This document shows, piece by piece, positions 12,600-55,118 of a stretch of DNA of 64,000 bases (position 1 is its first letter; each line of letters starts with the position of its first letter). The stretch spans positions 1 through 64,000 of IMG/VR virus record IMGVR_UViG_3300023174_000075; one strand, given 5' to 3'. The notes beneath the pieces were generated by a model that saw only the letters and a program-made list of their open reading frames with translations, was not told where the DNA came from and did not search any database. Origin of the DNA: a virus. A program made the position numbers and the translations under genes.

Positions 12600-12612
12600 A
12601 ATATATTATAGT

Positions 12613-12909: not shown

Positions 12910-12947
12910 GTTTAATTAGTTTTCACTATCCAACTAATAGTTCAATA

Positions 12948-12955: not shown

Positions 12956-12960
12956 ATTAA

Positions 12961-17608: not shown

Positions 17609-17613
17609 CTGTA

Positions 17614-38409: not shown

Positions 38410-38694
38410 TTATATTTGATCTAGTATACTTTTTAAATAATTAACATTGTTATATAAATCTAAAGCAGTATTTATTATATTTTGTTGTTCTATTTTGTCT
38501 ACATTACTATAGTATTCGGATAATACTTTAAGATTATCTAAATTATTATTAAACGTATCTATATTAATTTTTAAATATTTTTGTTCTTCCATAGTAAGTA
38601 TATTTTTATTGTATATATCTTCTGCAAAAGAAATAATATTTTGAATTTTATTAATACCCTGTATTAAAGTTTCAATACTTTCTATTATTAACAT
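38410..38694 (-). CDS. Small helical protein in the insertion block
   Basis: A 94-residue helical protein (MLIIESIETLIQGINKIQNI), very rich in Asn/Ile/Leu and extremely AT-biased in codons. No motif recognised. It lies between the oxidoreductase relic and a homing endonuclease and overlaps the 55-residue gene by 23 bases, so it is probably part of the DNA that came in with the endonuclease. Confidence 0.45.
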   Translation of the reverse strand: MLIIESIETLIQGINKIQNIISFAEDIYNKNILTMEEQKYLKINIDTFNNNLDNLKVLSEYYSNVDKIEQQNIINTALDLYNNVNYLKSILDQI

Positions 38695-38839
38695 TTTTAC
38701 TTTCTTGTTTTAACTGAATTAATTCTGCAAATTTATTTAAATTTACTTTATTATTTTTAATAGAAGTACGAATATTGTTTGTTAAAGTATTAACATTTTC
38801 TTTAATAACATCTTTTGATATTTCTGATAATTTTATCAT
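38672..38839 (-). CDS. Small MIKL-start protein
   Basis: A 55-codon frame starting MIKLSEISKDVIKENVNTLT and ending ESKNVNNRKY. The start matches the MIKL cargo tag, with a possible IKE|N cut at 14/15. The body is a single charged helix. A junction motif lies 5 bases upstream of the ATG, directly after the homing endonuclease stop. Its reality rests on the tag and motif. Confidence 0.5.
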   Translation of the reverse strand: MIKLSEISKDVIKENVNTLTNNIRTSIKNNKVNLNKFAELIQLKQESKNVNNRKY

Positions 38840-40881: not shown

Positions 40882-40923
40882 ATAATTAAATATAAGTTTT
40901 TTGTTTTGACGAGCAAAGAGAGA

Positions 40924-40942
40924 GCGCACCTTTTGAGTGCGC
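40924..40942 (-). terminator. Hairpin between the 384-residue gene and the FAD gene
   Basis: On the minus strand a 6-bp GC-rich stem GCGCAC / GTGCGC with a 7-base loop is followed by TCTCTCTTT. A second small hairpin (GAACAG / CTGTTC) lies at 40972-40992. The T-tract is weak, so termination is probable, not sure. Confidence 0.5.
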
Positions 40943-40998
40943 CACAGCTGCATTAATGTTATTTATTAATCGAACAGGCTATGAATCTGTTCTATATG

Positions 40999-42153
40999 TT
41001 ATTGTAAAGATGGTGTCTTATTGTAATCTAATACTAATGTTTTGCCACCTCTAGTTGGTTCTAATTTTGCTTGTTTATAAGGTATTGTTCTAAAATCTAT
41101 ACCATGAGATTGATTTTCGTGACGAGCTAACATTATTACAGGTTTATCATCAGCTATTAGATCATCTACGTCATTCATGTTTCTAGTAGTTTTAACAGTT
41201 AATACACCATTTTCTAAACTATAATCAGTTGATGAAAATGAACGTTGAACGATTTTGGCTTTATCAGGCCCAAATGTAATTTTTTCTAAATTATTATCTA
41301 TACCGGGGTAGTTAAGGATAAATATTCTACCATATCTTCTTTCATCTTTAGGATCCATCATATCCATTACTTTAGGTTGTAATGGATTTGATTTAATGAT
41401 TAGATTAGGAATTTTACCCTCTTTACCACTTTCTATAAATTTATTAAGTAGTTCACCAAAGTTTTTCCTTTCACTACTCCACCAATATGGACCATCTTTT
41501 TTAATCGATAGATTTTGCTCACCATTTTTAGTAACTAATGTTACGTCACCTTTAAGACCTTGTTTACTACCTGTATTACCCATTCCTTTAGCTTGTGTTA
41601 CATCAGGTATTAAAGTTTCTTTATTATCATCATCGATAAATTTAACACTTATAGGTCCACCATTTTGAGTAATAGCATCATTAACGGCATTAACTAATTC
41701 TTTTTCATTTGATACACCAGCTCCACCACCTTCTTGTCCACCTAAATTAGCTGATTTATATATTGAACTTACATTTAATGTTGTTTCTTGTCCATTAAGT
41801 TGTCCTATAATTCTAACGTTACGAGCGTTTTGTACATTTCTAAGTGCTCCTACTAAATTGGATTTTTCGTTTTTATCTTTAGCATAGAATGTTTCATCAC
41901 CTACTACTACATAATCTGCTACAAAATCATCCTCACCTTTAGCACCTATTTTAAATGGATCTTCATTATAAAATATAGTAGTAAATTGATCAGGACGTTT
42001 TTTTATTGAGTTAAGTGATAACATAGCTTCTTCTAATTCTAATTCATTAACCATTTCTTGTAATATGGTTAATTTAGTTGGATCGTTCAAATCAACGATT
42101 CCATCGTGGCAACGGTATGACCACTCTAATAATATTTTATCTATAACATTCAT
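40999..42153 (-). CDS. Cargo-like protein, possible restriction-endonuclease-type fold
   Basis: A 384-residue protein, MNVIDKILLEWSYRCHDGIV, with LLE|W at residues 10/11 and a helical start. The central segment GLKGDVTLVTKNGEQNLSIK (about residues 190-210) has the D-x(n)-x-K spacing of a PD-(D/E)XK core, though no residue set is proven. Later segments (YGRIFILNYPGIDNNLEKIT; VIMLARHENQSHGIDFRTIP) are beta-rich. It is the first gene of the accessory run. A nuclease is a hypothesis only. Confidence 0.5.
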   Translation of the reverse strand: MNVIDKILLEWSYRCHDGIVDLNDPTKLTILQEMVNELELEEAMLSLNSIKKRPDQFTTIFYNEDPFKIGAKGEDDFVADYVVVGDETFYAKDKNEKSNLVGALRNVQNARNVRIIGQLNGQETTLNVSSIYKSANLGGQEGGGAGVSNEKELVNAVNDAITQNGGPISVKFIDDDNKETLIPDVTQAKGMGNTGSKQGLKGDVTLVTKNGEQNLSIKKDGPYWWSSERKNFGELLNKFIESGKEGKIPNLIIKSNPLQPKVMDMMDPKDERRYGRIFILNYPGIDNNLEKITFGPDKAKIVQRSFSSTDYSLENGVLTVKTTRNMNDVDDLIADDKPVIMLARHENQSHGIDFRTIPYKQAKLEPTRGGKTLVLDYNKTPSLQ

Positions 42154-42154
42154 A

Positions 42155-42703
42155 TTATGCTTCTGCTGGTGGTGTTTCTTCTTCTGTTGGAGGTGCTGCT
42201 CCTGCCTCTGGTGCTGTTGTTTCAGGACCAGCTGATGCTAATTCAGGGCCTAATTCAGCTCCTGATGCTGCTGGGGATTCAGCTGGTGGTGTTTCTGCTC
42301 CTCCACTTTCCATACCTTCTTTAGGTGCATAATTTAATTCTAATAAATCAGCTATACCTTGTGAAGCACGCTCCAATTCACCTATATTAATTGGGTTGTA
42401 TCTTTTACCTGCTACTTTTACTTGAAAATTATCTCTACCTAGATATTTAATACTAAAATCTTGTCCGTTGATTAAATCAACTTTAAATGTTGTTGGTTTA
42501 GGGGCAACAATATTAATACCATTAACGTAACGACCAAAAGCGGGAGACATTAATTCTTCCATTATCTTTTTTAGTCCAGGAAAGCGATACACCATGTACA
42601 TCGCCTTCTCTGCTTTTCGCTGTTGTTCTTCTTGCTCTTTAAGAGCTTTTTTAACAGCTACCTTAATGTATTTTTCTAGTAATAATTGTTTATTCATTAT
42701 CAT
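42155..42703 (-). CDS. Cargo-like protein with Pro/Ala/Glu tail
   Basis: A 182-residue protein. From the second Met it reads MNKQLLLEKYIKVAVKKALK, with an early LLE site. A beta domain at about 55-120 (FKVDLINGQDFSIKYLGRDN) is followed by an acidic Pro/Ala/Glu-rich tail of about 45 residues (PAESPAASGAELGPELASAG). It overlaps the next gene upstream by 14 bases (8 from the second Met). Function unknown; the plan resembles the neighbouring tagged proteins. Confidence 0.5.
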   Translation of the reverse strand: MIMNKQLLLEKYIKVAVKKALKEQEEQQRKAEKAMYMVYRFPGLKKIMEELMSPAFGRYVNGINIVAPKPTTFKVDLINGQDFSIKYLGRDNFQVKVAGKRYNPINIGELERASQGIADLLELNYAPKEGMESGGAETPPAESPAASGAELGPELASAGPETTAPEAGAAPPTEEETPPAEA

Positions 42704-43322
42704 TTAATTCATGGAATCCTTGTGCAGCTTGATCGATATAGTTTTCAGCATTTGTTATGTGGTCTTGAATCCATCCTGGTATATCACGCTCCATCATTCC
42801 TAATTTATTCATTAGTTGAGCAGCAGATTTAATAATTGATTTTAAACTAGCTTGAGCCATTGCTACCTCATGATCATCACCTTCTTTAATATTTTTAGCT
42901 ATTGCTTTACGGCGATTAGCTAGATATTTATCTGTTTTATCTACCTTACCATCATTATTAATGTCTTTGTCTTCTTTTCCTACTGGGTCTAATTTTTCAG
43001 ACATTGTTTTATTAATAAAATCATCAGAAACAGCAAATACTTGTACTATACCATTTTCTAAATCTGTTACTTCAATATCTTCAAGATCATATTCTGCTTG
43101 TAATTCTTCAGCAACTTGGTTACCTATTGCTAAAGCTTTTCTAGCTCCTTCTTCTCTTTGTTGACCAGAAGCTGTTTTTGAACCTAACGCTACTAAAGCA
43201 CCTCCTGCTCCTACTGGGTATTTAATTTTTACAATTAAAAAATTAGGGTGATTAGGGTCTTTAGACATTTTAGGTTTAAAGTACTCTGTAGCTTCTGCTA
43301 GTAATTCAGCTAACTTTATCAT
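42690..43322 (-). CDS. Tagged cargo protein with calcium-loop motif
   Basis: A 210-residue protein with a textbook tag: MIKLAELLAEATEYFKPKMS, AE|A at residues 10/11. The middle is an alpha/beta domain (IVKIKYPVGAGGALVALGSK; VAEELQAEYDLEDIEVTD). At residues 120-131 DINNDGKVDKTD is an EF-hand/dockerin-type calcium-binding loop (D120, N122, D124, D128, D131 as likely ligands). The rest is helical (SLKSIIKSAAQLMNKLGMME; DIPGWIQDHITNAENYIDQA). It overlaps its neighbours by 4 and 14 bases. Packaging and calcium binding are inferred. Confidence 0.6.
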   Translation of the reverse strand: MIKLAELLAEATEYFKPKMSKDPNHPNFLIVKIKYPVGAGGALVALGSKTASGQQREEGARKALAIGNQVAEELQAEYDLEDIEVTDLENGIVQVFAVSDDFINKTMSEKLDPVGKEDKDINNDGKVDKTDKYLANRRKAIAKNIKEGDDHEVAMAQASLKSIIKSAAQLMNKLGMMERDIPGWIQDHITNAENYIDQAAQGFHELNDNE

Positions 43323-43699
43323 TTTAAAAAGCGTAATTTATATATTGTAGAATTAATTAAAGCAACAATCTCATCAATTTGATTTTGGATGTATGTATCT
43401 TGTGGAAGTACTTGTCTGCTTTTTTCAACGTACATACAAAGTGTTTCAAAATATGAAATTACACCTTCGCAATTTTGAAATTCTTGTAATGCTATATTAC
43501 CATATCCACTAATTATACCATATTTTCCTTGGTATGATTCTACAATACCATCAGTTATACCTACGATTTCGTCATAATATACATTTAGTGCTGAGTGTGC
43601 AGCAAATGAATCTGTTTGAAGATGAAATACATGTGATTGTGTGCGTGATGCAAACAAGGTTGATATGAATTGTCCTACGATTGGGTTATTATTTTCCAT
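43319..43699 (-). CDS. Helical (ferritin-like-type) small protein
   Basis: A 126-residue protein, MENNNPIVGQFISTLFASRT, rich in long helices with regularly placed His/Glu/Tyr: QSHVFHLQTDSFAAHSALNV, YYDEIVGITDGIVESYQGKY and ISYFETLCMYVEKSRQVLPQ. The helix pattern and the H-x-Y/D-E spacing look like a four-helix bundle of the ferritin/Dps type, which some T4-like phages carry. No targeting tag at the N-terminus. The fold is a guess from pattern. Confidence 0.45.
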   Translation of the reverse strand: MENNNPIVGQFISTLFASRTQSHVFHLQTDSFAAHSALNVYYDEIVGITDGIVESYQGKYGIISGYGNIALQEFQNCEGVISYFETLCMYVEKSRQVLPQDTYIQNQIDEIVALINSTIYKLRFLK

Positions 43700-43701
43700 T
43701 A

Positions 43702-44241
43702 TTATTTTTTTACTACTTTTTTAAGAATAGCACCAGCTACTTTCTTACCAGCTTCTTCTGAACCATATTGTTTAGCTGCTTTCTTAGCAATTTTTTCAAA
43801 TCCTTTACCTGGTTTGCCAATATCAGTACCTTTTTTAAAACGAGATTCATCTACTATTTTTTCTTGTCCAGCTTCAGGAACAAGACCCATCATTTCTTTA
43901 ATCTTATTCTTTTCAGCTGAGATTTTATCTTCAAGTGCTTTGATTTGTTCGTCAATACTTGCTTCTAATGCAACACCACCTGCTTTAATTTTATCTAATT
44001 CTTTAGCAAATTTAGCTAAATTAGCAAATTCAACTTCAGTTGATGTTGTTTTTTCAGCAAATTTAGCAGCCATTAATTCATCTTTCATTGTTTTCAATGC
44101 AGCTAACTCTTTTTTAAGATCAACTAACTTACCAGAGCTTTTTGGAAGACCTGCTTCTTTTTTCTTTGGTTCTTTATCTTTTGTTTCTTTTGCTTCGTTT
44201 ATTAAACTGCGTACGAATAGACGTAATGCGAAATTGTTCAT
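43702..44241 (-). CDS. Tagged coiled-coil, Lys-rich protein
   Basis: A 179-residue protein, MNNFALRLFVRSLINEAKET, with INE|A at residues 16/17. Long Lys/Glu-rich helices form a likely coiled coil (LVDLKKELAALKTMKDELMA; SIDEQIKALEDKISAEKNKI). The basic end GSEEAGKKVAGAILKKVVKK suggests DNA contact. This is the plan of T4 internal proteins: tag, cut, basic helical body. The gene is preceded by a junction motif. Confidence 0.55.
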   Translation of the reverse strand: MNNFALRLFVRSLINEAKETKDKEPKKKEAGLPKSSGKLVDLKKELAALKTMKDELMAAKFAEKTTSTEVEFANLAKFAKELDKIKAGGVALEASIDEQIKALEDKISAEKNKIKEMMGLVPEAGQEKIVDESRFKKGTDIGKPGKGFEKIAKKAAKQYGSEEAGKKVAGAILKKVVKK

Positions 44242-44261
44242 TATTTTTTATGTTTATATGT

Positions 44262-44269
44262 ATAAATAT
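44262..44269 (-). promoter_or_regulatory. ATATTTAT junction motif
   Basis: The coding strand reads AATATTTATACATATAAAC, overlapping the end of the 872-residue gene's stop and 20 bases before the 179-residue gene. Confidence 0.42.
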
Positions 44270-46887
44270 TATTGATTTCTGGTTTCATTAACGTGTTGTC
44301 TTATTAATTCACGTACTTCATCTAAATGACGTGGATTAGTAGCAACGTATTCACGTACTAAGTAATTACGTATTTCAGCTAAGTTACGACGTTGTAGTGC
44401 CTGCATTAATTCAGCTGGTGAATTTAATGTTACCGCTGTACCATCTGGTAATAATATATAATTTCTATTACCTGGTTGGATGTTTATAGATGCTATTATT
44501 TGTTGGTTTGCTAAACGAATAATATATATTTTGCTAGGGCCAACACTGATAACTCGACCTACACTACCAGCACCACCTAATTGATTATTACGACGTGCAG
44601 CACCTCTGTCACCATTTGGAGCAACACGTGTTGCATTATCTACATTTAATCGTCTATAATCAGCACGTGGTAAACGCATAAAAGCATTAGTTAATCCCGC
44701 GTCATCTATTACTTCAGCTACACCTATATCACCACCTCCTACGGCTGCTGGAGCTGCGGCACGTGGAGCATTAGCTACACCTGCTGGTCTACCTCTTCTA
44801 CCGGTTGTTGCTGTAGCTGCTATTGGTGTAGCGTCATCTGGTGTAGCGCCTGTTAATTGACGAGCCATAGCTCCAGGTATGTTTGCTTTAACTAATTTAC
44901 CTGTATCTGATAATTTAAATGATTCTCTTGGATTAGCTTTATTAATCAAATAAAAACCATTTGCTCCTACTGCTGGGGTAAAGCGATCTGTTGGTGAGAA
45001 TGGAGGTTGTGCTCTAAACCATGCTTTTTTACCTTCAGTATTACTCCAAGAACTTCTCCAAGCTCTCATTAATGGATCACTTTCATATACTTTATTCTCA
45101 TTTCTCATCCAGTTGAAATAAGCTCTAAATTCTGCTTCATCCATATTACTACTAGAAGTTCCTTCTCTCCAATTACCATTAGTTCCAAAAATATAATTAG
45201 TTCCAAAAGGTGAAAAATATAAATTTTTATCTTTTATAAAGATAGATCTATCACTTTGTCCATCTGGGACTAATATAATATGATCTGAATTATTTCTAGT
45301 TGCTGTTCTCTTACTATATGGGGTGGCATTAATTATAGATATAAATGCTTCTTTATCTAATGTTGGTGGAAGATCATCTCTACTATCAAATGCCGTTTTA
45401 ACAGCATTCATTGCTGAATCTTGGAATGATGTATTATCTTTTTCAGCAGCAAATACTGATTGTACATCTTCATCATTAAATGGTATTTTAGTTATTTTAC
45501 CATCTTCAACTTTATATGACGCAAATGAATTTGAATCAACTATAATTTCTTTACCATCTACATCTTTAACTACAATAGCAGAATTTTCATCTGTTTTAGC
45601 TTTTTCAATAACTGTATCTAATAATTTTCTATCAATAACACCATCAGTAGCTAATTTTATCATTATATTGAATGGTATCTTATCTAATTCTGGGTAATCA
45701 AGTAAATATTTTGATGTACGTTGGTTTAGTTTAATGGTTGGATAATCGTCTTCCGCTGTATATACTCCTACATTAACTGTGTCTCCAAATCTTAATTTAA
45801 CTATAGCTTTACCATCTTTAGTAACATACATTCTATCAGTAGATGGTATATTCCATTTCTTCAATATTGTTAATAATTTCTTAACATCAAATGGAAAGAT
45901 ATCTAATGGAAGATATTTTAAGTCGATTGCTGACTGGATATTAGCTGTTATTGATTTTCTATCTTGATTACTAAATTTATCTAAATTAGCTAATAAAAAA
46001 GTATTATCAATAATACCAGGAGTAACAGCAATAAATTCAGCTATTTGGGGATATTGTGGTAAATATTTTTCAACAAATTCTTTATTTTCTATGTCACTAA
46101 ATAATTTACTACTTTTTCTAACAACTAAATATTGTTTTTTAGTATTGAATGGCATTTTTACCCATTCTCTAATACTAACAGCATCTCTCTTATATTTTTG
46201 ATTTACTTTTTCTTGATTAGATAACGGAATGTAACGTAATATACTCCTAATATTAGGAACATCATTTAACCAAGGTACTTCAGATGATAATCTACTAAAA
46301 GGCATTGGGGATGATTCGTATGGGCTATTATGTCTATTTGTATAGACGTATTTTCTATTTTCATCCTCTACATCTCTAACTTGTACAGCAACAAAACTCA
46401 ATTTATCACTATCTGATATATTGGTATTTTTAATTAAATAAAATGTTGGGTAACCTTTAGAAGCATCATAACGATAATTACCAAATGATCCCCTAGTGAT
46501 ACACCATTTTTCACCACTACCATAATTTACACAGTTACCTTCTTTAGAACCATTCCATACAGTAATACCATTATCTTGATATACTACATCTGGTGTTTGA
46601 TCTTCTTCATCATCTGATGCTTCAGCTCCTGCTGATGATGTAACCAATTTTATTAGTTTAGATAAAGACCATTTACGTAAATCTTTTTCCTGTATTTTAG
46701 GTGAATTTTTTATAGCATCAAAACGTTCAATATATTTTTTTAATGTATCATCACTAATATTAATATTTAAATCGTCAGCTTCTTCTCTAAATTGAGCCAT
46801 TAAACGTTTTATTTCACCTTCAGAATATTCATTCAGTGGAAAAATATTGTGTACTACATGTAATATGAATTTATCTATTGCTCTCAT
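44269..46887 (-). CDS. Large multidomain accessory protein with YGxGxxWCI motif
   Basis: An 872-residue protein, the largest accessory product here. It starts MRAIDKFILHVVHNIFPLNE, an amphipathic helix with LNE|Y at 20/21. Residues 122-132 hold YGSGEKWCITR with an upstream GNCV, and a beta core follows (GYPTFYLIKNTN; KLSFVAVQVRDVE). This combination recurs in several large phage proteins, but its activity is unknown to me; the Cys and Trp suggest a catalytic or ligand site. The middle is helical with repeated Phe/Leu/Asp segments. The C-terminal third is Ala/Arg/Gly-rich (RRGRPAGVANAPRAAAPAA) and ends in a beta plus helical domain (IIRLANQQIIASINIQPGNR). Tight 4-base overlap with the peptidase gene upstream. 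Confidence 0.55.
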   Translation of the reverse strand: MRAIDKFILHVVHNIFPLNEYSEGEIKRLMAQFREEADDLNINISDDTLKKYIERFDAIKNSPKIQEKDLRKWSLSKLIKLVTSSAGAEASDDEEDQTPDVVYQDNGITVWNGSKEGNCVNYGSGEKWCITRGSFGNYRYDASKGYPTFYLIKNTNISDSDKLSFVAVQVRDVEDENRKYVYTNRHNSPYESSPMPFSRLSSEVPWLNDVPNIRSILRYIPLSNQEKVNQKYKRDAVSIREWVKMPFNTKKQYLVVRKSSKLFSDIENKEFVEKYLPQYPQIAEFIAVTPGIIDNTFLLANLDKFSNQDRKSITANIQSAIDLKYLPLDIFPFDVKKLLTILKKWNIPSTDRMYVTKDGKAIVKLRFGDTVNVGVYTAEDDYPTIKLNQRTSKYLLDYPELDKIPFNIMIKLATDGVIDRKLLDTVIEKAKTDENSAIVVKDVDGKEIIVDSNSFASYKVEDGKITKIPFNDEDVQSVFAAEKDNTSFQDSAMNAVKTAFDSRDDLPPTLDKEAFISIINATPYSKRTATRNNSDHIILVPDGQSDRSIFIKDKNLYFSPFGTNYIFGTNGNWREGTSSSNMDEAEFRAYFNWMRNENKVYESDPLMRAWRSSWSNTEGKKAWFRAQPPFSPTDRFTPAVGANGFYLINKANPRESFKLSDTGKLVKANIPGAMARQLTGATPDDATPIAATATTGRRGRPAGVANAPRAAAPAAVGGGDIGVAEVIDDAGLTNAFMRLPRADYRRLNVDNATRVAPNGDRGAARRNNQLGGAGSVGRVISVGPSKIYIIRLANQQIIASINIQPGNRNYILLPDGTAVTLNSPAELMQALQRRNLAEIRNYLVREYVATNPRHLDEVRELIRQHVNETRNQ

Positions 46888-47537
46888 TGTATTGGAGGTA
46901 AATTTAGTGCTTTTAATCTAGTAGACCACACATTTAATATGTCTTGTCTTTCTTGTGGGTCTAATCCTACTTTATCAAAATAATCGTTAATTACTTTTTT
47001 AAATGGTGTACGTGTTTTTTTAGCTTTTATATATAAGCCTTGTAACATAGCATCCACTTCTCTTTCTAATTTAAAATACTCAGCTCTTGGTAATTTTCCT
47101 TTATTAATTTGTTTACGTATTTTTATATCATCCGCCATTTCCTTAGAAGGGATAACATTAATACCTTCTTGTGTAAAATGTTCTAATTCATGTCTAATAA
47201 CATCCGTTAAATCATGATATATTGTTTCCCACATTTGTGGTAAATCTCTTGGATCTACCTGAAATCTAATTTCAAGATATGGAGGATCTAGTTTTTGATT
47301 AACGCCACCATCTACAGCATATGTACCTTCTTCAGTTTCTTCAACTCTTAATATAGCATTTAATTCAAATTCAAATGGACGACCTTTAGCATCAGTTAAA
47401 TCATAGTCTTCCTCAAATTCTAAATCACCTTGTTCGTCCATATATTGATCTTTCCATTCTCTCATAATGTCAGTGACTATGTTTCTAGTTATAGAATCAT
47501 AAGCACCTTCTTTCAATATATTAATTAATTTAATCAT
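46884..47537 (-). CDS. Tagged zinc metallopeptidase-like protein
   Basis: From the ATG at 47537 the product is 217 residues, MIKLINILKEGAYDSITRNI, with KE|G at residues 10/11. The active-site motif HELEH (116-120, in VIRHELEHFTQEG) is the gluzincin-type HExxH zinc site, with a possible third ligand Glu in REVDAMLQGL downstream. An upstream ATG at 47594 would overlap the neighbouring gene by 56 bases and hide the tag, so the MIKL start is better. A packaged protease that acts on entry is a reasonable inference; the substrate is unknown. Confidence 0.65.
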   Translation of the reverse strand: MIKLINILKEGAYDSITRNIVTDIMREWKDQYMDEQGDLEFEEDYDLTDAKGRPFEFELNAILRVEETEEGTYAVDGGVNQKLDPPYLEIRFQVDPRDLPQMWETIYHDLTDVIRHELEHFTQEGINVIPSKEMADDIKIRKQINKGKLPRAEYFKLEREVDAMLQGLYIKAKKTRTPFKKVINDYFDKVGLDPQERQDILNVWSTRLKALNLPPIQ

Positions 47538-47538
47538 A

Positions 47539-48270
47539 TTACCATTTTCTACAAGACCAATAATTTGCTTTCCAACGTGGTCCTGGATTATCACAGTGAT
47601 GTCTTTTGCGGTATGCGCTGCGGCGTTTTGGATTTTTAGCTTTAATTACCATGCGTTTGCCTTTTGCTGACTTTCCGCCAAATCCAAAATTAACCTTTAC
47701 AACTTTACCTTTGTTATTTTTAACGTATACTTTAAATTTTTTAATGTCGCCTTGCATTGGTTTGCCCAATTGTACTTTACGACCATGATATTCAGCTTCT
47801 GTTACACAGTTACATGATGCTTCGGTTAAGAATGTTTTATATTCTTTCATAAATCTAATGAAGTCTTTTACCTCATACAAGTCATTTTCATTAACGTCAT
47901 ATTCATCTATTTGATTGCTATTATCATGTCCACATTTATGACAAGTGTAAGGATCGGTTCCACCATTATCTAATTTCCACTCCCAACCACAGTTTTCGCA
48001 TGTAATTGTTTGATCTTCACCAATAAAAAATGCTTCATTAATTTCACTATCTAAATGACGAATAATACCTGATTTTAAATCGGCTTGAAAGTTACCTTTA
48101 TACTCTGCTGGTTCATCACTGTTGATATATTTTATTGTTACCTCACCTGGATATTGTAAATAGTTTATATCAATAGTTTGAAATTGATTTCCGTCTCTAT
48201 CTACATAATAATCTACTTCATTTTCATTAATGATTTCTAAAATAAGTTGTTTTAATTCTGTAAGTTTCAT
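47539..48270 (-). CDS. Zinc-ribbon protein with basic aromatic C-terminal module
   Basis: A 243-residue protein, MKLTELKQLILEIINENEVD, with a cargo-like helical start. A zinc ribbon has C91-x2-C94 and C110-x2-C113 in TCENCGWEWK and YTCHKCGHDN. The C-terminal 80 residues are strongly basic: KKFKVYVKNNKGKVVKVNFG, KNPKRRSAYRKRHHCDNPGP, then WKANYWSCRKW. The last block is recognisable as a small module found at the end of several phage proteins, without known role. Basic, Cys-rich and probably DNA-associated. A second TE|A-type site lies inside (LTE|ASCNC). Confidence 0.55.
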   Translation of the reverse strand: MKLTELKQLILEIINENEVDYYVDRDGNQFQTIDINYLQYPGEVTIKYINSDEPAEYKGNFQADLKSGIIRHLDSEINEAFFIGEDQTITCENCGWEWKLDNGGTDPYTCHKCGHDNSNQIDEYDVNENDLYEVKDFIRFMKEYKTFLTEASCNCVTEAEYHGRKVQLGKPMQGDIKKFKVYVKNNKGKVVKVNFGFGGKSAKGKRMVIKAKNPKRRSAYRKRHHCDNPGPRWKANYWSCRKW

Positions 48271-48273
48271 AAT

Positions 48274-48678
48274 TTATTTATTAAGACGTACTTTTGCTTT
48301 TTTTGTGTTTGGTACAAATTGTTTTTTAGCTGCTGCTTTTTTCTTTGATGTAGCAGCACGTTCAGCTTTAGTTAAACTATTAGCTTTAGCACGAGGTAAA
48401 CAACGAGTTGTTTTATTACCTTTTTTCATTGTACCACAAGGACCAGTTATATTACCTGCTGTATCAATACGAACCCAATCTTCTTTTTTAAACCAATCAC
48501 GTAATGATTCATCTATTTTTTCTTTCATTAATCCTTTACATACTTTAACAGCACGACCAGAAAGGTAAGCTGATGGTTTTTCTCCAGCAGCTCTACGACG
48601 ATTATAATAAGCTTTACCTTTAGGGCATAGCTTTTTTTCTGCTAATATATCGCTTAATATTTCGGTTAGTTTAATCAC
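48274..48678 (-). CDS. Tagged, very basic small protein (DUF5872-like)
   Basis: A 134-residue protein, MIKLTEILSDILAEKKLCPK, with a MIKL start and LAE|K at 14/15. Two segments are distinctive: KAYYNRRRAAGEKPSAYLSG with flanking Cys, and WVRIDTAGNITGPCGTMKKG followed by TTRCLPRAKANSLTKAERAA. I associate these with the DUF5872 type, with moderate certainty. More than a quarter of residues are Lys/Arg. The charge and tag fit a protein packed with DNA inside the head, like T4 internal proteins. Confidence 0.6.
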   Translation of the reverse strand: MIKLTEILSDILAEKKLCPKGKAYYNRRRAAGEKPSAYLSGRAVKVCKGLMKEKIDESLRDWFKKEDWVRIDTAGNITGPCGTMKKGNKTTRCLPRAKANSLTKAERAATSKKKAAAKKQFVPNTKKAKVRLNK

Positions 48679-49295
48679 TTTATAATTTCTTTAATATCAT
48701 AATAAAAAGAATCTGTATCTTCTGACACCCATCTATCTGCTACTGATTCTACAGCTAGTAGTTCTGTATCTACTTTTATAGTTTTAGGATCAACTGGAAA
48801 ATCTTTAGTTATCCAATTTGAATCTTTCCAAAATATTCTATTATTTGGCATACACATTAGATATCCATCATCCGCTGCTAATACATGTCCACATTTATAG
48901 TCAGTAGGTTCGTCTGAGTATGGGTTATTTTGCCAGTCTATCGTAAATAAATATGTAGCCCAAACATATGTTTTATCTCTTAATATAACCTTACATTTCT
49001 TTTCTTTTAAATAACTATAAGTTATTATTGTCGCGTCATTATCAAAACAATCCCATAATTGCTTATAATAAAATGGTAAGTCTTTTTTAGGTTCTTGTAA
49101 GTAAATTTCAGATAGTGGTACTCTAGATCTTAACATCCCATAATCAGTCATGATATGAAATGTAAGTATTTTGCCCATTATTGATTGTATACCAAAAGCA
49201 TAAGCGTTATGATACTTATTAGAGTCTTTAGGATTTTTAGTAAAATACGATTCTTTTATAAGACATTTAAAATATGGTATGTTTTCATTTAACAT
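48675..49295 (-). CDS. Protein of unknown function in the accessory run
   Basis: A 206-residue protein, MLNENIPYFKCLIKESYFTK, with a possible IKE|S site at 14-16 that may be chance. It is rich in aromatic residues and Cys (YFKCLI; WDCFDN; DYKCGHVLAADDGYLMCMPN). No zinc pattern is convincing. It overlaps the DUF5872-like gene by 4 bases and is followed by a MIKL gene. No family recognised. Confidence 0.45.
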   Translation of the reverse strand: MLNENIPYFKCLIKESYFTKNPKDSNKYHNAYAFGIQSIMGKILTFHIMTDYGMLRSRVPLSEIYLQEPKKDLPFYYKQLWDCFDNDATIITYSYLKEKKCKVILRDKTYVWATYLFTIDWQNNPYSDEPTDYKCGHVLAADDGYLMCMPNNRIFWKDSNWITKDFPVDPKTIKVDTELLAVESVADRWVSEDTDSFYYDIKEIIK

Positions 49296-49296
49296 A

Positions 49297-49638
49297 TTAT
49301 TTTTTTCTTATTAGTAGTTCGCCTAATACTTCCATACGACCCACCTCTCGTTGAAACTCGACTGGAGTCATACTTAATGATATACTCTTTAATGTTTTTT
49401 CAAACTCCTTTTTAGCTTCTTCAACATCGAACTTACCCTCCATTGCTTTCTCATAGTAAGATGCTTTCACTTTAAAGTGATGCCAAGTCAATAATGCCAG
49501 ACCACCTTTCTCTTCAGCTGTGGAAGCTATCTTGGCTGCTCCAGCACCACGGGTGTCAGCAAACTCTTCGAACGCTTTTTCCTCTTGGGACACCTTCTTG
49601 TCGTCAGCTTCCTTTAGTATGTGAGTAAGTTTAATCAT
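49297..49638 (-). CDS. Tagged small helical cargo protein
   Basis: A 113-residue protein, MIKLTHILKEADDKKVSQEE, with KE|A exactly at residues 10/11. The remainder is helical and charged (KAFEEFADTRGAGAAKIAST; KKEFEKTLKSISLSMTPVEF). Codons use more C and G at third positions than most genes here, hinting at a different origin for this part of the run. No known motif. Packaging is inferred from the tag. Confidence 0.6.
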   Translation of the reverse strand: MIKLTHILKEADDKKVSQEEKAFEEFADTRGAGAAKIASTAEEKGGLALLTWHHFKVKASYYEKAMEGKFDVEEAKKEFEKTLKSISLSMTPVEFQREVGRMEVLGELLIRKK

Positions 49639-49639
49639 T

Positions 49640-49942
49640 TTAGTATAGTACTGTGTTGCATAAGTTAGACACGGTTAAGTTAGCTATAAGCGATATAAAG
49701 AACATAGCCCAAGTTTGATTGATCTGTGGGACAGTCTTATTGTTATCAATATTGCCAATACCCTTTGGAGCAGTCTTAAAGCCAACAGTGCCATATGTTA
49801 ATGCAGTCCCAATAAAAGCATTCAAAAAGCTAAGTGGTGTAAACAAGAGGCTGTGACCATAGTCCAACAACTCAGAGGAAATAATTACTTGTGGTAATCC
49901 AACCATGAATGCTAATGATAAAAAAATTTTTACTACCTTCAT
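49640..49942 (-). CDS. Small membrane protein
   Basis: A 100-residue protein with two to three hydrophobic segments (VKIFLSLAFMVGLPQVIISS; LLFTPLSFLNAFIGTALTYG; TWAMFFISLIANLTVSNLCN). It overlaps the 76-residue membrane gene by 4 bases. The pair could be holin-related, but no signature proves it. It sits inside a run of tagged genes without having a tag. Confidence 0.5.
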   Translation of the reverse strand: MKVVKIFLSLAFMVGLPQVIISSELLDYGHSLLFTPLSFLNAFIGTALTYGTVGFKTAPKGIGNIDNNKTVPQINQTWAMFFISLIANLTVSNLCNTVLY

Positions 49943-50169
49943 AAATGTGATATTAAAACAGGCACACTGCCTGCTATTGTGTATAAAAAATCGTTTATGT
50001 CCGGTGTACCCTTTTTAGAGTAGTGATCGTATACTTCTTTAGCTACACCCACTACTGCTGTTACTATGAAGGCATATAGCCATGGCATAACTAATATAGC
50101 GACCCCCGATATTAGAGCTCCATATATAAAATGGTTAGCTTTGTCCAGTGGTACTATTGGTAGTTTCAT
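49939..50169 (-). CDS. Small membrane protein (YfiM/DUF2279-like)
   Basis: A 76-residue protein, MKLPIVPLDKANHFIYGALI, with DKANHFIYGA, two hydrophobic segments and GVAKEVYDHYSKKGTPDIND. This D-K-x-x-H...G-x-x-K-E-x-x-D plan is typical of YfiM/DUF2279-like small envelope proteins common in phages of Gram-negative hosts. A lysis-related role is often assumed for them but not shown here. Overlaps the next membrane gene by 4 bases. Confidence 0.5.
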   Translation of the reverse strand: MKLPIVPLDKANHFIYGALISGVAILVMPWLYAFIVTAVVGVAKEVYDHYSKKGTPDINDFLYTIAGSVPVLISHL

Positions 50170-50170
50170 G

Positions 50171-51043
50171 TTATCGTTTTATTAAAAGATAATAATCTTC
50201 TAACTGCTCTCTCTTCTTTTTAGTAGGTTTTTCATCGGCATAATCCGCATCAAACCTAATAAAGAATTTATCACCTTCTATTTTTGCTATTTCACCAAAC
50301 CATATATCTCCCATTCTAACAATTTCGTTACCTACTTTAAGTTTAGTTTGTGGAGTTATTCTTATCCAATTACCGGCTTTAAAGTCTTTTTGCGCTCTAG
50401 GATCTGCCCAGTTAGGTAGTAAGGTTGGATCTACATCATTTTTAATATAGGTAATTAAATCATCAGCTGATCCATTTCTGATTACTTTTTGCCTGTCGTA
50501 TGTTACAAGATTATTAGCAAGATCTTGTAAATCTTCTGGTTTTTGTTTCTTGCCAGCTTTCTTAAAGCCTAATTTATAGGCAGCTATAAGTACGTTTGTA
50601 ATATCCTTTTTTACTTTAGAATTGTTCGGATATTTATTGAAGCGTTCCATTGCTTTGGTGAATATATTTTTCCACTCATCACCAGGATTGTTATAGTCGT
50701 ATGTATTTGGTTGTGCACTTATGACTTCACCCATGAAGTCAACATCAGGGTCACCAGTCATTTGTCTTGTAGTTGATATTGGCTTCACTGCTTTAATGAA
50801 GGATACCGCTAAGGCACTTTCTCTACTTACCGGCTTATCATTCTTTAGCATCTTGAAGGTAGGTTCATTTTGTGAATTGGTACCCACTCTTACATACAGT
50901 TGCTTGGTATCATCATCGAGAGTAAGCTCTATCTTATCGCCTGGCTTAGTACTTAGCAACTGTCTTTCTACTGCCCCTTCTGTTAGACCAGCTAGTTGTT
51001 GAAAGCGTCTTACTTCGTTTAATATATCTGTTAATTTAATCAT
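50171..51043 (-). CDS. Tagged cargo protein of unknown function
   Basis: A 290-residue protein, MIKLTDILNEVRRFQQLAGL followed by TEGAVE. Two possible cuts exist: LNE|V (10/11) and the better LTE|G (22/23). RFQQLAG is shared with the head protein at 25075-25686. The body is alpha/beta (LLSTKPGDKIELTLDDDTKQ; EIVRMGDIWFGEIAKIEGDK with FFIRFDADYADEK). No catalytic motif. It overlaps the next tagged gene by 4 bases. Slightly higher GC than average. Confidence 0.55.
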   Translation of the reverse strand: MIKLTDILNEVRRFQQLAGLTEGAVERQLLSTKPGDKIELTLDDDTKQLYVRVGTNSQNEPTFKMLKNDKPVSRESALAVSFIKAVKPISTTRQMTGDPDVDFMGEVISAQPNTYDYNNPGDEWKNIFTKAMERFNKYPNNSKVKKDITNVLIAAYKLGFKKAGKKQKPEDLQDLANNLVTYDRQKVIRNGSADDLITYIKNDVDPTLLPNWADPRAQKDFKAGNWIRITPQTKLKVGNEIVRMGDIWFGEIAKIEGDKFFIRFDADYADEKPTKKKREQLEDYYLLIKR

Positions 51044-51555
51044 TTTTTATTTTTTACACAATTAGGGTATTTTTTGCCAAACATTGTTTTTATTCCTTTT
51101 TTAGTATATCCAGGCCAACATTTTTCATTTAGTATATCTTCATTCTGTTGTACAGGAGCATATCCTGAGCCATATGGTGCTGCTTTACCGGATTGAGGGT
51201 CTGCTGTTTCTTTATTTAAAGTTTTAGTTTTTCTTTTAGATGCTTCTTTACGTGTTTCAATATAATCTAAAGCACGTTTTAAACGTTTTTTAACCTCAGG
51301 ATCTTTAGCTTTACCATATGCTGCTCTAACACGTTGATGAATTAAATTAATAATTTGTGATTTACGAGCGTGTGTTTTAGATTTAAATGATGCTTTAGTT
51401 AAAGTATCTTTTATATCTTCAGCTGTTTTAAATTTAATAGATACAGTATCTTTAGGATTTTCATCTGTGTATAAACGACGACTGGATCCTTTAGGTTTTT
51501 TACCGGTACCTGTTTTAGGATCAGCTTCAGTTAATATATCTATTAATTTTATCAT
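51040..51555 (-). CDS. Tagged, very basic protein with Cys-containing end module
   Basis: A 171-residue protein, MIKLIDILTEADPKTGTGKK, TE|A exactly at 10/11. It is highly basic (KKRLKRALDYIETRKEASKR) and ends with CWPGYTKKGIKTMFGKKYPN followed by CVKNKK, a short module seen at the end of other phage proteins. This is the classic internal-protein plan: tag, then a basic DNA-associating body. An internal ILNE site near residue 145 could be a second cut that frees the end module. Confidence 0.6.
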   Translation of the reverse strand: MIKLIDILTEADPKTGTGKKPKGSSRRLYTDENPKDTVSIKFKTAEDIKDTLTKASFKSKTHARKSQIINLIHQRVRAAYGKAKDPEVKKRLKRALDYIETRKEASKRKTKTLNKETADPQSGKAAPYGSGYAPVQQNEDILNEKCWPGYTKKGIKTMFGKKYPNCVKNKK

Positions 51556-51566
51556 ATTAAACTATA

Positions 51567-51851
51567 TTACTTCTTTAATTTAATATTTTCAGTGGATAAG
51601 AAATCAACTTTAACACGTAGTTCTGCTACTTCAGATGTTAATTTCAATACTAAATTACGTAATTCATCTTTTTCTTTAGCTGATGCTTCTAATAGAGCTT
51701 CTAATTTAGAGATACGATCTTTGCAGTCATGACGAATAAAATCATCATCACGTTCTCTATGTATTGCTCTTTTTTCATAATAGCGAAAAGCTGTAGTACC
51801 ACCTAAAACTGTTATTGCTGTGATTAATACTGACCAAATGTTACTATCCAT
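51567..51851 (-). CDS. Membrane-anchored coiled-coil protein
   Basis: A 94-residue protein with one N-terminal hydrophobic segment (SNIWSVLITAITVLGGTTAF) and a long coiled coil (DRISKLEALLEASAKEKDEL; LKLTSEVAELRVKVDFLSTE). This topology is shared by i-spanins and some holin-associated proteins. There is no tag. Located between a tagged gene and a junction motif. Lysis role possible. Confidence 0.5.
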   Translation of the reverse strand: MDSNIWSVLITAITVLGGTTAFRYYEKRAIHRERDDDFIRHDCKDRISKLEALLEASAKEKDELRNLVLKLTSEVAELRVKVDFLSTENIKLKK

Positions 51852-51884
51852 AATACTTAAGACTTATTGTATAAATTATTACCA

Positions 51885-51892
51885 ATAAATAT
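51885..51892 (-). promoter_or_regulatory. ATATTTAT junction motif
   Basis: The coding strand reads AATATTTATTGGTAAT immediately after the stop of the 193-residue gene and about 33 bases before the membrane coiled-coil gene. Confidence 0.42.
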
Positions 51893-52473
51893 TATGCGTT
51901 CATGGCCTCCTTGAGTTTCTGGATGTATTCTTGTATATCTTTTATGAATTGATTGTCTAGACTTTTACCTTTCCATTCTTCAATATCACCTGCTTCTGTA
52001 ACGTATGATTCGCCAGATTGACCCATAAGTAATTCTAATAATACATTTTCCATTTCCTTAATGTGATATGTAATACCCTGTTTAATTATATTTTGTTCAT
52101 ATTCTTTATATTCACCTCTAACCTTTAATTTAGTTTCATAATCAATTACACAATCAGAACATTTTTGATGTATTTTGAACATATACTTATCAAAATGACC
52201 TTTTGTCATTGGTTTGTTACAGTTAGGACATGTGATAGGTGTGAATATTTTTTTCTTAATATCGTCAAAGCGTGTTACAGTTTGTTTAATTCCATTTTTT
52301 ATAGTCCATTTTTTGCCACGTTCTTCCCAAACGTCACCTTCCTTGCGTTCAACATAGTCGGCAGTATATCCAACCTGTATGCCGGTTTTATCACCCGCTT
52401 TTTTGGTAATGATATTACGCATACGTTGTACATCGCGTGTTTTAAATTCTTTTTTAAGTAAATTATCGCTCAT
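51892..52473 (-). CDS. Zinc-binding protein of unknown function
   Basis: A 193-residue protein with two CxxC pairs (C82/C85 in ITCPNCNKPM and C105/C108 in IHQKCSDC), a likely zinc ribbon. Basic N-terminal helices (DVQRMRNIITKKAGDKTGIQ) come before it and an acidic helix after it. It overlaps the deoxynucleotidase-like gene by 1 base. Related to small zinc proteins of T4-like phages in aquatic habitats; function not known. Confidence 0.55.
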   Translation of the reverse strand: MSDNLLKKEFKTRDVQRMRNIITKKAGDKTGIQVGYTADYVERKEGDVWEERGKKWTIKNGIKQTVTRFDDIKKKIFTPITCPNCNKPMTKGHFDKYMFKIHQKCSDCVIDYETKLKVRGEYKEYEQNIIKQGITYHIKEMENVLLELLMGQSGESYVTEAGDIEEWKGKSLDNQFIKDIQEYIQKLKEAMNA

Positions 52474-52940
52474 TATAACCCTAATTTTTTAAGTTGTGCA
52501 ATTGTATTTGTAGCTGAAGTATGGTGTATTCCCATACCACCAGCATTATTCCATTCTCTAATGGTTTGTTCCATATCATCAATTAATATTCGTTCAGGGC
52601 CAGCAAACATTTGTTTATATGCTCTAGAATAAAAATATAATTTTTTATATTGATTATTAATATGCATTTTGCACCAAGCTTCCTTACCTACTTTAGATGA
52701 AGGATCTTGTGATGGAGATGATAAAATATTTGGTTTATAGCGTTTGATATAACTCCATAGAGTTTTACCATCTGACATCCAGGGTAGATTAGCCCAAAAA
52801 GCGGCCCCTTCTTCTTCTATTGGTTGCCAAAAGGCAGCGTCACCTTTAACGTATTGTTTTGTGTGAACACCTGTTAGATCATAATAACCTTTTTCAAAAT
52901 CAACAAGGACACCATCCATGTCACAGTAAATTGTATACAT
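52473..52940 (-). CDS. HAD-type 5'(3')-deoxyribonucleotidase-like protein
   Basis: A 155-residue HAD-superfamily protein: motif I is YCDMDGVLVDF (D7, D9), the motif II Ser is in NILSSPSQD (about 71-79), and motif III/IV is RILIDDMEQTIREW (D121, D122). The length fits phage 5'(3')-deoxyribonucleotidases, which remove phosphate from dNMPs and adjust nucleotide pools. It is next to nucleotide- and DNA-handling genes. Cytosolic. The exact substrate is not shown. Confidence 0.75.
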   Translation of the reverse strand: MYTIYCDMDGVLVDFEKGYYDLTGVHTKQYVKGDAAFWQPIEEEGAAFWANLPWMSDGKTLWSYIKRYKPNILSSPSQDPSSKVGKEAWCKMHINNQYKKLYFYSRAYKQMFAGPERILIDDMEQTIREWNNAGGMGIHHTSATNTIAQLKKLGL

Positions 52941-52953
52941 AACTTATATTTTA

Positions 52954-54366
52954 TTATTGATATATTTCTTCGTTTTGTTTGCCGAATTTTCTTAATAATA
53001 CACCTGCTTGCGCATTTGCTTCATTTTCAATTTCACTACCCGTCTCACCACTATTATAATCAATTCTACCATCCTCAGCTTGCTTGCGATGTACTAACTC
53101 ATGAGCTAATGTACGTAATAAATCGGCCATGTTACGATTTTTAACATACAACCATATTTTATCATTATTAGGATCAAATGAACCAAATGAATGATTTGAT
53201 TTAGCCATATTATTATCTCTTGACAATGTAAGAGATGTTGGCGGTTTTTGTATTCCTAATTCGTCAATAGCAAAAGCAATAAATTTCTTTAATAATTTAT
53301 TATCGTTTGCTGTATTTAAACCTTCCCCAAGATCAATGGGTTGATGTAATTGTTTAGTTTGTAGATTTAATGTGCCTTGTAATACAGTAGGAATTGAACC
53401 TAAAGCTTTATATAAAGATAATACAACTTCTCCACCTACCAAATAATACTTATCTTGAGCATAACATAATACAAGAGGTAACGGCATATCCTTACCAGCT
53501 TTAATTTGATCAATGTATGGTTTTGGGTTAATACCTAATTTTAAAGCATGTTGGATAGCATCATCTAGTGTTTTCATTTTATATGACTTGCTATTTTCTA
53601 ATTTAGACCATATATCATCATTTAATACTGTTTCCTCTCCACCATTAAAAGCATATTCCATATCCTCTATTGGAATATTAAATACAGCAGATGCTTTTTC
53701 TATTTTAGCACGATTTTGTGTTATGTAGTCTTGATAAGCATCATCATCAAAATTAATTGGAGGTGATTCTTTTAATGGCTCTTCTGTAGGTGTTTCGGCA
53801 GGAGTTTCTATTGGTGGTGTTTCTGTTGATTTTTCTTCTGGTTTATTATTCAATGCATTTAAAAAATCATCTACAGACACTCCATCGGGAAGATATTTTG
53901 CAATTTCTTCCTCATTCTTTTGAGCTAAGGCCATACGTAAGTTAGTTGCACTAACACCTTCAATAGCACCAGCATCAAATACTTTTACGTTAGGGTATTT
54001 CTCAATACTTTTATAGCGATCCATTTCACCTTTACCAAATGCTACTAAAAAATTAGTATCAGGATTATTTTTAACAACATCATATACTTCCTTAACAGGA
54101 CTAGAATCAGCAGATACTTTTACTTCAACTGAACCATTAAATTTATTTTTATATAGATCCCATACAGCAATACTTTCATCAGCAGTAACACCTTCACGTG
54201 TTTGAGGTGACACAAGTACTACTACTTGATCAGCAGCTTTTAATAATTTTTCAACAACATCAACATGTCCTTTATGAGGTGGTTTAAAGGCACCTGGGAA
54301 TAGTGCTATTGTTGGTTGATTTTCTGCTTCTAATAATATATTAGCTAAGTATTGGCCTAAATTCAT
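52954..54366 (-). CDS. Tagged fusion: nucleotidyltransferase, ParB-like segment, HExxH peptidase-like end
   Basis: A 470-residue protein that seems to join three modules. Residues 1-13, MNLGQYLANILLE|A, are a targeting-like tag. Residues 17-150 are a cytidylyltransferase-type domain: FPGAFKPPHKGHVDVVEKLL with the HxGH site (31-34) and GVSATNLRMAL (137-147), the (I/V)SxTxxR-type motif. Residues about 265-335 resemble a ParB/sulfiredoxin-like fold (MPLPLVLCYAQDKYYLVGGE). Residues 400-455 hold AHELVHRKQAEDG (HELVH 422-426) with downstream Glu residues (445-449), a zinc-peptidase pattern. Pro/Glu linkers separate the modules. I do not know another phage protein with this combination. Roles are inferred. 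Confidence 0.65.
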   Translation of the reverse strand: MNLGQYLANILLEAENQPTIALFPGAFKPPHKGHVDVVEKLLKAADQVVVLVSPQTREGVTADESIAVWDLYKNKFNGSVEVKVSADSSPVKEVYDVVKNNPDTNFLVAFGKGEMDRYKSIEKYPNVKVFDAGAIEGVSATNLRMALAQKNEEEIAKYLPDGVSVDDFLNALNNKPEEKSTETPPIETPAETPTEEPLKESPPINFDDDAYQDYITQNRAKIEKASAVFNIPIEDMEYAFNGGEETVLNDDIWSKLENSKSYKMKTLDDAIQHALKLGINPKPYIDQIKAGKDMPLPLVLCYAQDKYYLVGGEVVLSLYKALGSIPTVLQGTLNLQTKQLHQPIDLGEGLNTANDNKLLKKFIAFAIDELGIQKPPTSLTLSRDNNMAKSNHSFGSFDPNNDKIWLYVKNRNMADLLRTLAHELVHRKQAEDGRIDYNSGETGSEIENEANAQAGVLLRKFGKQNEEIYQ

Positions 54367-55118
54367 TTTATAAAATTATTTATTTTCGATTTAGCATTTT
54401 TAATAGATGTAAATTGTGGTATTATTTCTACTAAATGAGCTATCATGTCATTTAAAGCTTGATTTTCTTGTTCTTTTTTAGCGCGTTCGTCTGCTGTATA
54501 AACCTTACCACTACCTTTTACTGTTTGAAAAAATAATCGTTTAGCAGTTTCAGGATTATATTCAGCTTTACCTTCAGGATCATTATTTACTAATATAAAT
54601 TTATCACCAAAAGCTTTTTTATACGTATCTATATTATTATTAACTCCAGCCCATGTTTTTAATACAATACCAGGAGGTAATGCTCTATCCCTATCAGCAT
54701 TACGTTTTAATGATGTATAAGGGGAAACCCAAATCATTAACATCATTGTATCATATCCTAATGCTTCTAATTCAGATTTTTTCTTAAGTAATGGTTTACT
54801 AGCGGCACCTGTACCATCTATTACTATATTATTTTTATCAGCAGATAGTTGTGCAAATTTTTCTTTAGTAGTCTTTTGAGCTCTACCCATCATTTGTGCT
54901 GCTTGGGATAATTGATCTTGACTAAAATCAGAAATTTTAGTACCTAATCCAGCTGCTTTAAGTAGTTCTTCATAAGCATCATCTACGTTAATTACAGTTA
55001 AATCTGATGGTATAATTTGCTTAGTTACAAATGTTTTACCAGAGCCAGCAGGACCAGCTAAAAATATAGCTTTTGGTCGAGCTGATGCTTCTAATAATAA
55101 GTTTAATAATTTAATCAT
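54363..55118 (-). CDS. Tagged zeta-toxin/polynucleotide-kinase-like P-loop kinase
   Basis: A 251-residue protein with a perfect tag: MIKLLNLLLEASARPKAIFL, LE|A at 10/11. Right after it comes Walker A GPAGSGKT (22-29), then VINVDDAYEELLKAAGLG (possible catalytic Asp), IVIDGTGAASKPLLKKK, and an Arg-rich lid (KRNADRDRALPPG). This matches the zeta-toxin/PNK-like kinase layout. In T4, a packaged enzyme (Alt) acts on the host on entry; a packaged kinase could do the same. Whether it phosphorylates sugar nucleotides, RNA/DNA ends or something else is open. It overlaps the fusion gene by 4 bases. Confidence 0.7.
   Translation of the reverse strand: MIKLLNLLLEASARPKAIFLAGPAGSGKTFVTKQIIPSDLTVINVDDAYEELLKAAGLGTKISDFSQDQLSQAAQMMGRAQKTTKEKFAQLSADKNNIVIDGTGAASKPLLKKKSELEALGYDTMMLMIWVSPYTSLKRNADRDRALPPGIVLKTWAGVNNNIDTYKKAFGDKFILVNNDPEGKAEYNPETAKRLFFQTVKGSGKVYTADERAKKEQENQALNDMIAHLVEIIPQFTSIKNAKSKINNFIK

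Follow-up and report, generated by a model that had tools for sequence, protein, structure and literature searches.

The DNA analysed here (the window) comprises bases 1-64000 of IMGVR_UViG_3300023174_000075, a 124,427-base IMG/VR virus record, and encodes many otherwise unrelated proteins that begin with a common ten-residue tag, MIKLxxILxE, or with one of several longer tags. It is quite likely that these tags act as T4-type capsid-targeting propeptides, cut by a gp21-type protease, and that the cargo behind them is packaged and ejected. The lineage probably has a strongly expanded T4-type capsid-targeting system with a large, changing cargo set. Since the tag matches the head-sorting signal of T4, the heads of these phages probably contain a variable set of proteins for injection into their hosts.

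Ten proteins starting with MIKL, listed in an earlier note on this DNA, were all found where it had placed them, the one at 48274-48678 having a GTG start. In six of them (17614, 42690, 46884, 49297, 51040 and 54363) a site (L/I)xE/(A/G), with the slash marking the putative cut, lies at residues 10/11. The later (L/I)xE sites noticed at the same time were also real, namely those in 52954 (13/14), 43702 (16/17), 50171 (22/23) and 25075 (21/22 counted from the GTG start, 18/19 from the ATG). The tagged and candidate genes are given below, with counterparts from Flavobacterium phage immuto, the closest cultured phage by capsid protein (57% identity); ORF stands for open reading frame.

54363..55118, minus strand: P-loop kinase, zeta-toxin-like; tag MIKLLNLLLE/A; Zeta_toxin PF06414 1.1e-9 (residues 12-145), AAA_33 4e-7, PDB 1gvn 5e-4; the kinase domain starts directly behind the tag
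52954..54366, minus strand: nucleotidyltransferase (CTP_transf_like) with a C-terminal HExxH metallopeptidase-like part; tag MNLGQYLANILLE/A (E13); PF01467 1.3e-5 from residue 22, phrog_395/3041 cytidyltransferase, phrog_87 metallo-protease 0.0015
52473..52940, minus strand: deoxyribonucleotidase-like protein, without a tag in the window
51040..51555, minus strand: basic protein, mature isoelectric point (pI) 10.1; tag MIKLIDILTE/A
50171..51043, minus strand: protein with two tandem tags of two types, MIKLTDILNE/V and then RRFQQLAGLTE/G
49297..49638, minus strand: small protein; tag MIKLTHILKE/A; immuto homologue gp082 starts MRLLELLRE/A
48274..48678, minus strand: basic protein, GTG start; tag VIKLTEILSDILAE/K; DUF5872-like (PF19197 1.2e-4, under the cut-off)
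47539..48270, minus strand: protein with a longer tag, MKLTELKQLILEIINE/N; phrog_7595; homologue L272
46884..47537, minus strand: HExxH (HELEH) protein; tag MIKLINILKE/G; no family match in Pfam/PHROG-type searches
43702..44241, minus strand: Lys/Ala-rich protein; tag MNNFALRLFVRSLINE/A (E16)
42690..43322, minus strand: protein with a Ca-binding-like motif (DINNDGKVDKTDKYL); tag MIKLAELLAE/A
42155..42697, minus strand: candidate cargo or core protein; N-terminus MNKQLLLEKYIKVAVKKALKE/Q
40999..42153, minus strand: candidate cargo; N-terminus MNVIDKILLE/W; immuto gp078 starts MSVVDKIVIE/W
38672..38839, minus strand: short ORF; MIKLSEISKDVIKE/N
17614..17952, minus strand: conserved gene between capsid and tail genes; tag MIKLSKILLE/A, found in many relatives
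17279..17608, minus strand: conserved gene adjoining the previous one; MIKLQTLLE/D (E9)

As the two conserved genes at 17279-17952 are tagged in many relatives, the tag is not confined to variable cargo.

Within the 39-57 kb cluster the loose motif [LI]xE[AG] at residues 8-25 occurred in 7/24 genes and within the 16-39 kb head region in 4/29, compared with 2/123 genes in the rest of the genome (internal windows, 2.6-3.6%; Fisher p = 4e-5). As a discriminator between genomes this count was poor (T4, p = 0.018; crAss001, p = 0.04; immuto, p = 0.14). A stricter register motif, hydrophobic-x-x-hydrophobic-[LI]-x-E with the Glu at residues 8-23, does separate them. This motif was picked after the tags had been seen, and it yields false positives, the T4 matches including non-head genes. 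It was present in 19/176 genes of the genome (p = 2e-11) and was enriched in immuto (p = 6e-10), in T4 (p = 1e-4) and in four uncultured relatives. No enrichment was found in the Bacteroidota podoviruses crAss001 (p = 0.63) and phi38:1 (p = 0.76).

A census of the tag covered 158 related contig stretches, the genome itself, four further whole records and immuto. The ORFs that begin with M-I-K/R-L/F formed 67 body clusters, of which 47 passed a filter for hydrophobic residues at positions 7 and 8; the others include chance ORFs. Clusters were defined by BLAST, which may count some remote homologues separately and merge multidomain proteins. The unrelatedness of the tagged bodies extends further than the earlier note had reported, to 47 unrelated families in the lineage. 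In a family-weighted logo of these 47 bodies, L4 reached 94%, I/L7 96%, L8 91% and E10 85%, while positions 5 and 9 varied freely; the filter biases the census toward positions 7 and 8 and not toward 4 or 10. Conservation ends after residue 10, where entropy was 1.1 bits; residue 11 had 3.0 and residue 12 had 3.7. The free variation right after Glu10 fits a removable propeptide. By family, the residue following the Glu (P1') was I in 38%, A in 14%, L in 10%, V in 9% and S in 6%; Ala or Gly at this position, as in the sites noted earlier, is not the general rule. The synonymous codon variation claimed for the tag was confirmed over the body clusters, with ATT 52%, ATA 38% and ATC 9% for Ile2; position 4 was encoded by TTA (51%), CTA (22%) or TTT (16%) and Glu10 by GAA (54%) or GAG (5%).

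DNA encoding exactly MIKLIDILKE was found in 92 viral stretches, in a scan that uses no other property, and in 0 of 84,980 bacterial and archaeal genomes. All of the stretches that were retrieved (80/80) have homologues in this T4-like lineage, 26 of them with a terminase gene in the same stretch, and the exact decapeptide stands before 37 body clusters.

The register of the tag is that of a mapped T4 signal. The first ten residues of T4 internal protein (IP) IPIII (MKTYQEFIAE/A) suffice for packaging, residues 4 and 7 serving targeting and residues 8 and 10 processing, and gp21 cleaves after L/I-x-E (PMC9026906). The likeness to IPIII noticed earlier was borne out at these mutationally mapped positions of the capsid-targeting sequence (CTS), since hydrophobic residues at 4 and 7, L/I at 8 and E10 are all conserved here. 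In T4 itself, two internal-protein genes (MKTYQEFIAE/A) and gp24 (MAKINELLRE/S) are in the same register. T4 gp24 and the IPs bear N-terminal propeptides of 10-20 residues, and that of gp24 is removed by gp21 (PMC5694885). The gp21-type protease that the earlier note had recognized is indeed encoded (Peptidase_S77 PF03420, 1.2e-33; phrog_207, 1.9e-54) and has GELxHP and SSRG stretches in common with T4 gp21. A T4-type head module is present, with gp20 (PF07230), gp21 (PF03420), gp23 (PF07068) and a T4-type terminase (PF03237). Further genes of the head region are as follows.

22197..23864, minus strand: major capsid protein gp23; PF07068 1.7e-77; conserved LLE/S8, SGLLE/G (~34) and VTE/A (~59)
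23885..24919, minus strand: probable scaffold, from its position between the protease region and the capsid gene; its start MSNKNLFKEAIADAK resembles the equally placed immuto gp067; no PHROG match
25075..25686, minus strand: candidate core protein adjoining the protease; other tag type, MLIQEAKRFQKLAGIITE/A
25671..26294, minus strand: prohead core protease (gp21 type); PF03420, phrog_207; own N-terminal LTE/G at residue 20
29737..31626, minus strand: portal gp20; PF07230 1.2e-69

Judging from aligned N-termini, homologous bodies can take different tags, joined at the same residue directly after the Glu. In the ADP-ribosyltransferase (ART)-like family, L329 reads MKKSELKQIIKEEIRKVLNE/SKQVGTLYHFT (the tag ending RKVLNE), L322 reads MIKLLDILNE/SKQVGPLYHWT and L102 reads MIKLIDILRE/AKQIGPLYHFT. 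Two paralogues of phage Mel-JY01 start MIKLKSLLQE/IISDRVWH and MSLVTE/TISDRVWH. The window protein 47539 (...EIINE/NEVDYYVDRDGN) and its homologue L272 (MIKLSKLLNE/NEVDYYVDRDGN) have different tags and the same residue after the Glu, and several relatives keep the E16 of the 43702 protein with a different tag sequence. Presence of a tag also varied. The nucleotidase 52473..52940 has no tag in the window, where it starts MYTIYCDMDG, and its counterparts in L145 (MIKLIDLLNE/) and immuto (gp087) have one; the nucleotidyltransferase starts M-GGNVF in the untagged immuto gp089 and reads ILME/GGNVF in the tagged L124. These comparisons were used in place of an automatic alignment test of tagged and untagged proteins with [LI]xE[AGSN], which was too noisy (false tags, for example at the primase N-terminus, and over-extended starts).

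The tag repertoire is wider than MIKL and includes at least three other N-terminal types, whose boundaries are less precise in the longer types than in the MIKL type. In the counterpart region of immuto, near primase and exonuclease genes, the tags partly differ (FDLKKFLVENKLTxNSxLL, MKKSQLRxIIKEAL, RRMQKLAGIITES). Queries with 27-residue immuto-type tags (FDLKKFLVENKL..., RRMQKLAGIITES) against the phage collection returned only immuto records, as short queries reach near-identical tags only.

Several further cases of varied tags were observed. Several genes of G011 (L203-L211) read DILKE/ARIVP, GITE/ARIVP and GINE/ARVVP, that is, two tag types with common residues after the presumed cut, and in some of these cases tag and downstream linker may move together. 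Microcystis phage Mel-JY01 encodes a tagged nucleotidyltransferase and two ART-like paralogues (11243-13162, 60276-60926, 62068-62718) with differing short N-terminal tags, and its MSLVTE resembles the six-residue propeptide of T4 Alt. One family (L094 13970-14608, L123 5622-6251, L142 12818-13453), for which Pfam gave no match, has clustered LxEG-like sites (LMLNEG, ILLSEG, HIQEG) and looks as if it were cut several times.

Evidence from virions comes from a distant homologue. The cytidyltransferase T4-GC190 was detected in purified virions of cyanophage S-SM1 by Sullivan et al. (PMC3037559). The S-SM1 protein starts MKKFSAFLNE/A and the P-SSM2 homologue MKSFSQFLTE/T. S-SM1 GC190 and the window protein 52954-54366 have phrog_395 and phrog_3041 in common, with a pairwise BLAST value of 4e-5, and the DxDNDG..DKYL motif of the tagged protein 42690-43322 also occurs in the S-SM1 gene right after GC190. 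Virion proteomes of immuto, Mel-JY01 and RM378 were not found in the open-access literature.

The cargo in the window includes the zeta-toxin-like P-loop kinase, the nucleotidyltransferase with its HExxH part, a second HExxH protein, basic proteins and the protein with the Ca-binding-like motif. Relatives tag a GNAT acetyltransferase (PF00583, 1.6e-11), leucine-rich-repeat-like, kinase-like and ART-like proteins, and a 2H phosphoesterase weakly similar to Acb1 (4e-4, under the cut-off). For the kinase-like L263 family, a structural model (pLDDT 85) gave kinases as its best Foldseek matches, with E down to 4e-4 and low TM-scores, among them short effector kinases. Lys39 and Asp198 are invariant in 13 sequences, and in the model the tag forms a short separate helix (residues 4-10). 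The modelled fold of this family is protein-kinase-like with a conserved Lys and Asp, and activity is predicted. The ART-like L336 family (pLDDT 72) had a single significant match, to the tRNA 2'-phosphotransferase 7yw4 (E 1.4e-5), an enzyme of the ART superfamily. His22 and Glu115 are invariant in 11 sequences, and the Pfam match of a related member was under the cut-off. A basic mature pI, a trait of the T4 IPs, is not typical of the tagged set (median 6.2 vs 6.1). PADLOC gave no convincing defence-system match for the window cargo.

Genes without the tag lie among those described. Homing-type endonuclease genes are interspersed with the head and cargo genes at 27512-28039 (NUMOD, GIY-YIG), 38852-39496 (NUMOD) and 56870-57310 (SegE-like GIY-YIG), and an untagged FAD/NAD-dependent oxidoreductase-like gene (Pyr_redox_2) at 39547-40953 adjoins the tagged genes. 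Outside the window, a long run at 102824-123843 contains sugar-nucleotide, glycosyltransferase and ketoacyl-synthase-like genes by N-terminal sequence, which suggests phage-encoded surface glycan synthesis.

In the mechanism we propose, the amphipathic ten-residue helix MIKLxxILxE, or one of the longer tags, would dock the precursor on the prohead core; the resident gp21-type protease would then cut after the Glu and free the mature protein inside the head, and the cargo would be ejected into the host together with the DNA. As the tag is small and independent of the downstream body, any gene could become cargo by gaining it, and relatives would differ in which proteins they tag. The capsid-targeting reading of the earlier note has gained from the register, the boundary, the head genes, the swaps, the lineage restriction and the S-SM1 homologue, while docking, cleavage, packaging and injection are still what we infer. 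A more specific version, rated only slightly better than even, has new cargo recruited by the mere gain of a tag: dozens of unrelated host-modifying enzymes (ART-like, kinase-like, acetyltransferase, 2H phosphoesterase, nucleotidyltransferase) would be directed to the head by four or more removable tags that can replace one another and all end in a gp21 site.

Several points weigh against capsid targeting. The open-access literature yielded no proteomics on the tagged proteins of this lineage, the link from S-SM1 GC190 to 52954-54366 is distant (20% identity), and the genome-wide count of the register motif was not significantly enriched in S-SM1, P-SSM2, RM378 or Mel-JY01. About 15% of the tagged families have no Glu at residue 10, and in several families the point where tag and body join lies a few residues off. 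The commonest P1' residues are I, A, L and V, in contrast to the small residue found at most T4 sites; a small P1' is a tendency at T4 sites and not part of the defining L/I-x-E, and the mismatch lowers the claim of an identical cleavage rule. The enzyme activities of the cargo are predicted, the conserved tagged genes 17279 and 17614 may be structural and not cargo, and sequence statistics alone cannot tell docking on the core from binding to another target.

Even with targeting to the prohead core and cleavage of the tag, most tagged proteins could be core or scaffold components consumed in assembly, with few or none injected. Some widely conserved tagged genes that adjoin the protease (25075) or sit between capsid and tail genes (17279, 17614) would agree with this, and there is a precedent in T4 gp22, gp67 and gp68, which are cleaved to fragments (PMC5694885, PMC9026906). 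We consider it unlikely, though the strongest of the alternatives, given that the tagged bodies have diverse enzyme-like folds and vary from relative to relative, as would be the case for injected proteins like Alt and the T4 IPs.

The tag could instead be a membrane-binding amphipathic helix by which unrelated proteins are attached to the inner membrane of the host, with the Glu inside the helix and neither cleavage nor packaging. MIKLxxILxE is amphipathic, the hydrophobic residues often run on at position 11 (I, L or V), and the kinase-like model has the tag as a short separate helix. A membrane helix does not need a fixed Glu at residue 10 or a sharp end there, however, and it is made improbable by the different tags joined to the same bodies directly after the Glu, by the lack of enrichment in the two podoviruses and of the exact decapeptide in the cellular genomes scanned, and by the fact that T4 head proteins and S-SM1 GC190, which was detected in virions, have the same architecture. 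Least probable of all, and hardly to be expected, is a shared start that reflects an element of the DNA, such as a recombination hotspot or a translation-start signal, and not a selected peptide. The tags do lie at the extreme 5' end of genes within a high-turnover cluster, but their codons vary synonymously under fixed amino acids, positions 5 and 9 are free, and other tags, unrelated in sequence, keep the same end motif.

If capsid targeting is correct, the tag provides a sequence rule for predicting, among the uncharacterized proteins of a widespread phage group that is known mostly through metagenomes, those that are packaged in the head and probably injected. Such a rule points to host-takeover and anti-defence proteins that would act before phage gene expression. 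The old question of which proteins T4-like phages inject, and of how these are recruited as cargo, becomes directly testable, and the ten-residue tag could serve to load chosen proteins into phage heads.

Reviews already suggest CTS-driven packaging of varied proteins in T4-like phages; novelty was assessed from open-access papers alone. One of the nearest known systems is the CTS of T4 IPI, IPII and IPIII (Mullaney and Black 1996; PMC9026906, PMC3012670), with which the tags share ten N-terminal residues, hydrophobic positions 4, 7 and 8, Glu10, attachment to proteins that are otherwise unrelated, and a gp21 protease encoded by the phage. The consensus here is MIKLIDILKE and not MKTYQEFIAE, there are tens of cargo families, many of them enzyme-like, and several alternative tag types, P1' is not mainly Ala, and packaging is inferred. 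The start of T4 gp24 (PMC5694885) is very near the MIKL tag, but gp24 is a shell protein. T4 Alt is an injected ADP-ribosyltransferase whose six-residue propeptide is cut at ITE-6 (PMC5694885), comparable to MSLVTE/T of Mel-JY01; in contrast, the modelled ART-like cargo fits a tRNA 2'-phosphotransferase fold rather than Alt, and it is found behind several tag types. S-SM1 T4-GC190 (PMC3037559) has LNE/A at 10/11, belongs to the PHROGs of 52954-54366 and lies in a run of genes close to that for DNA primase, but is distant in sequence, and no record of its cleavage was found. MuF-fused and polyvalent effectors (PMC9503650) include ARTs and other enzymes for which packaging in the head has been argued and which are presumed to modify the host after injection; they are head-protein fusions or large multidomain proteins, whereas delivery here seems to depend on a short, removable peptide. 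In P1 DarB a short N-terminus (>9, <=30 residues) suffices to package a reporter, but the Dar proteins gave no consensus (PMC9024508).

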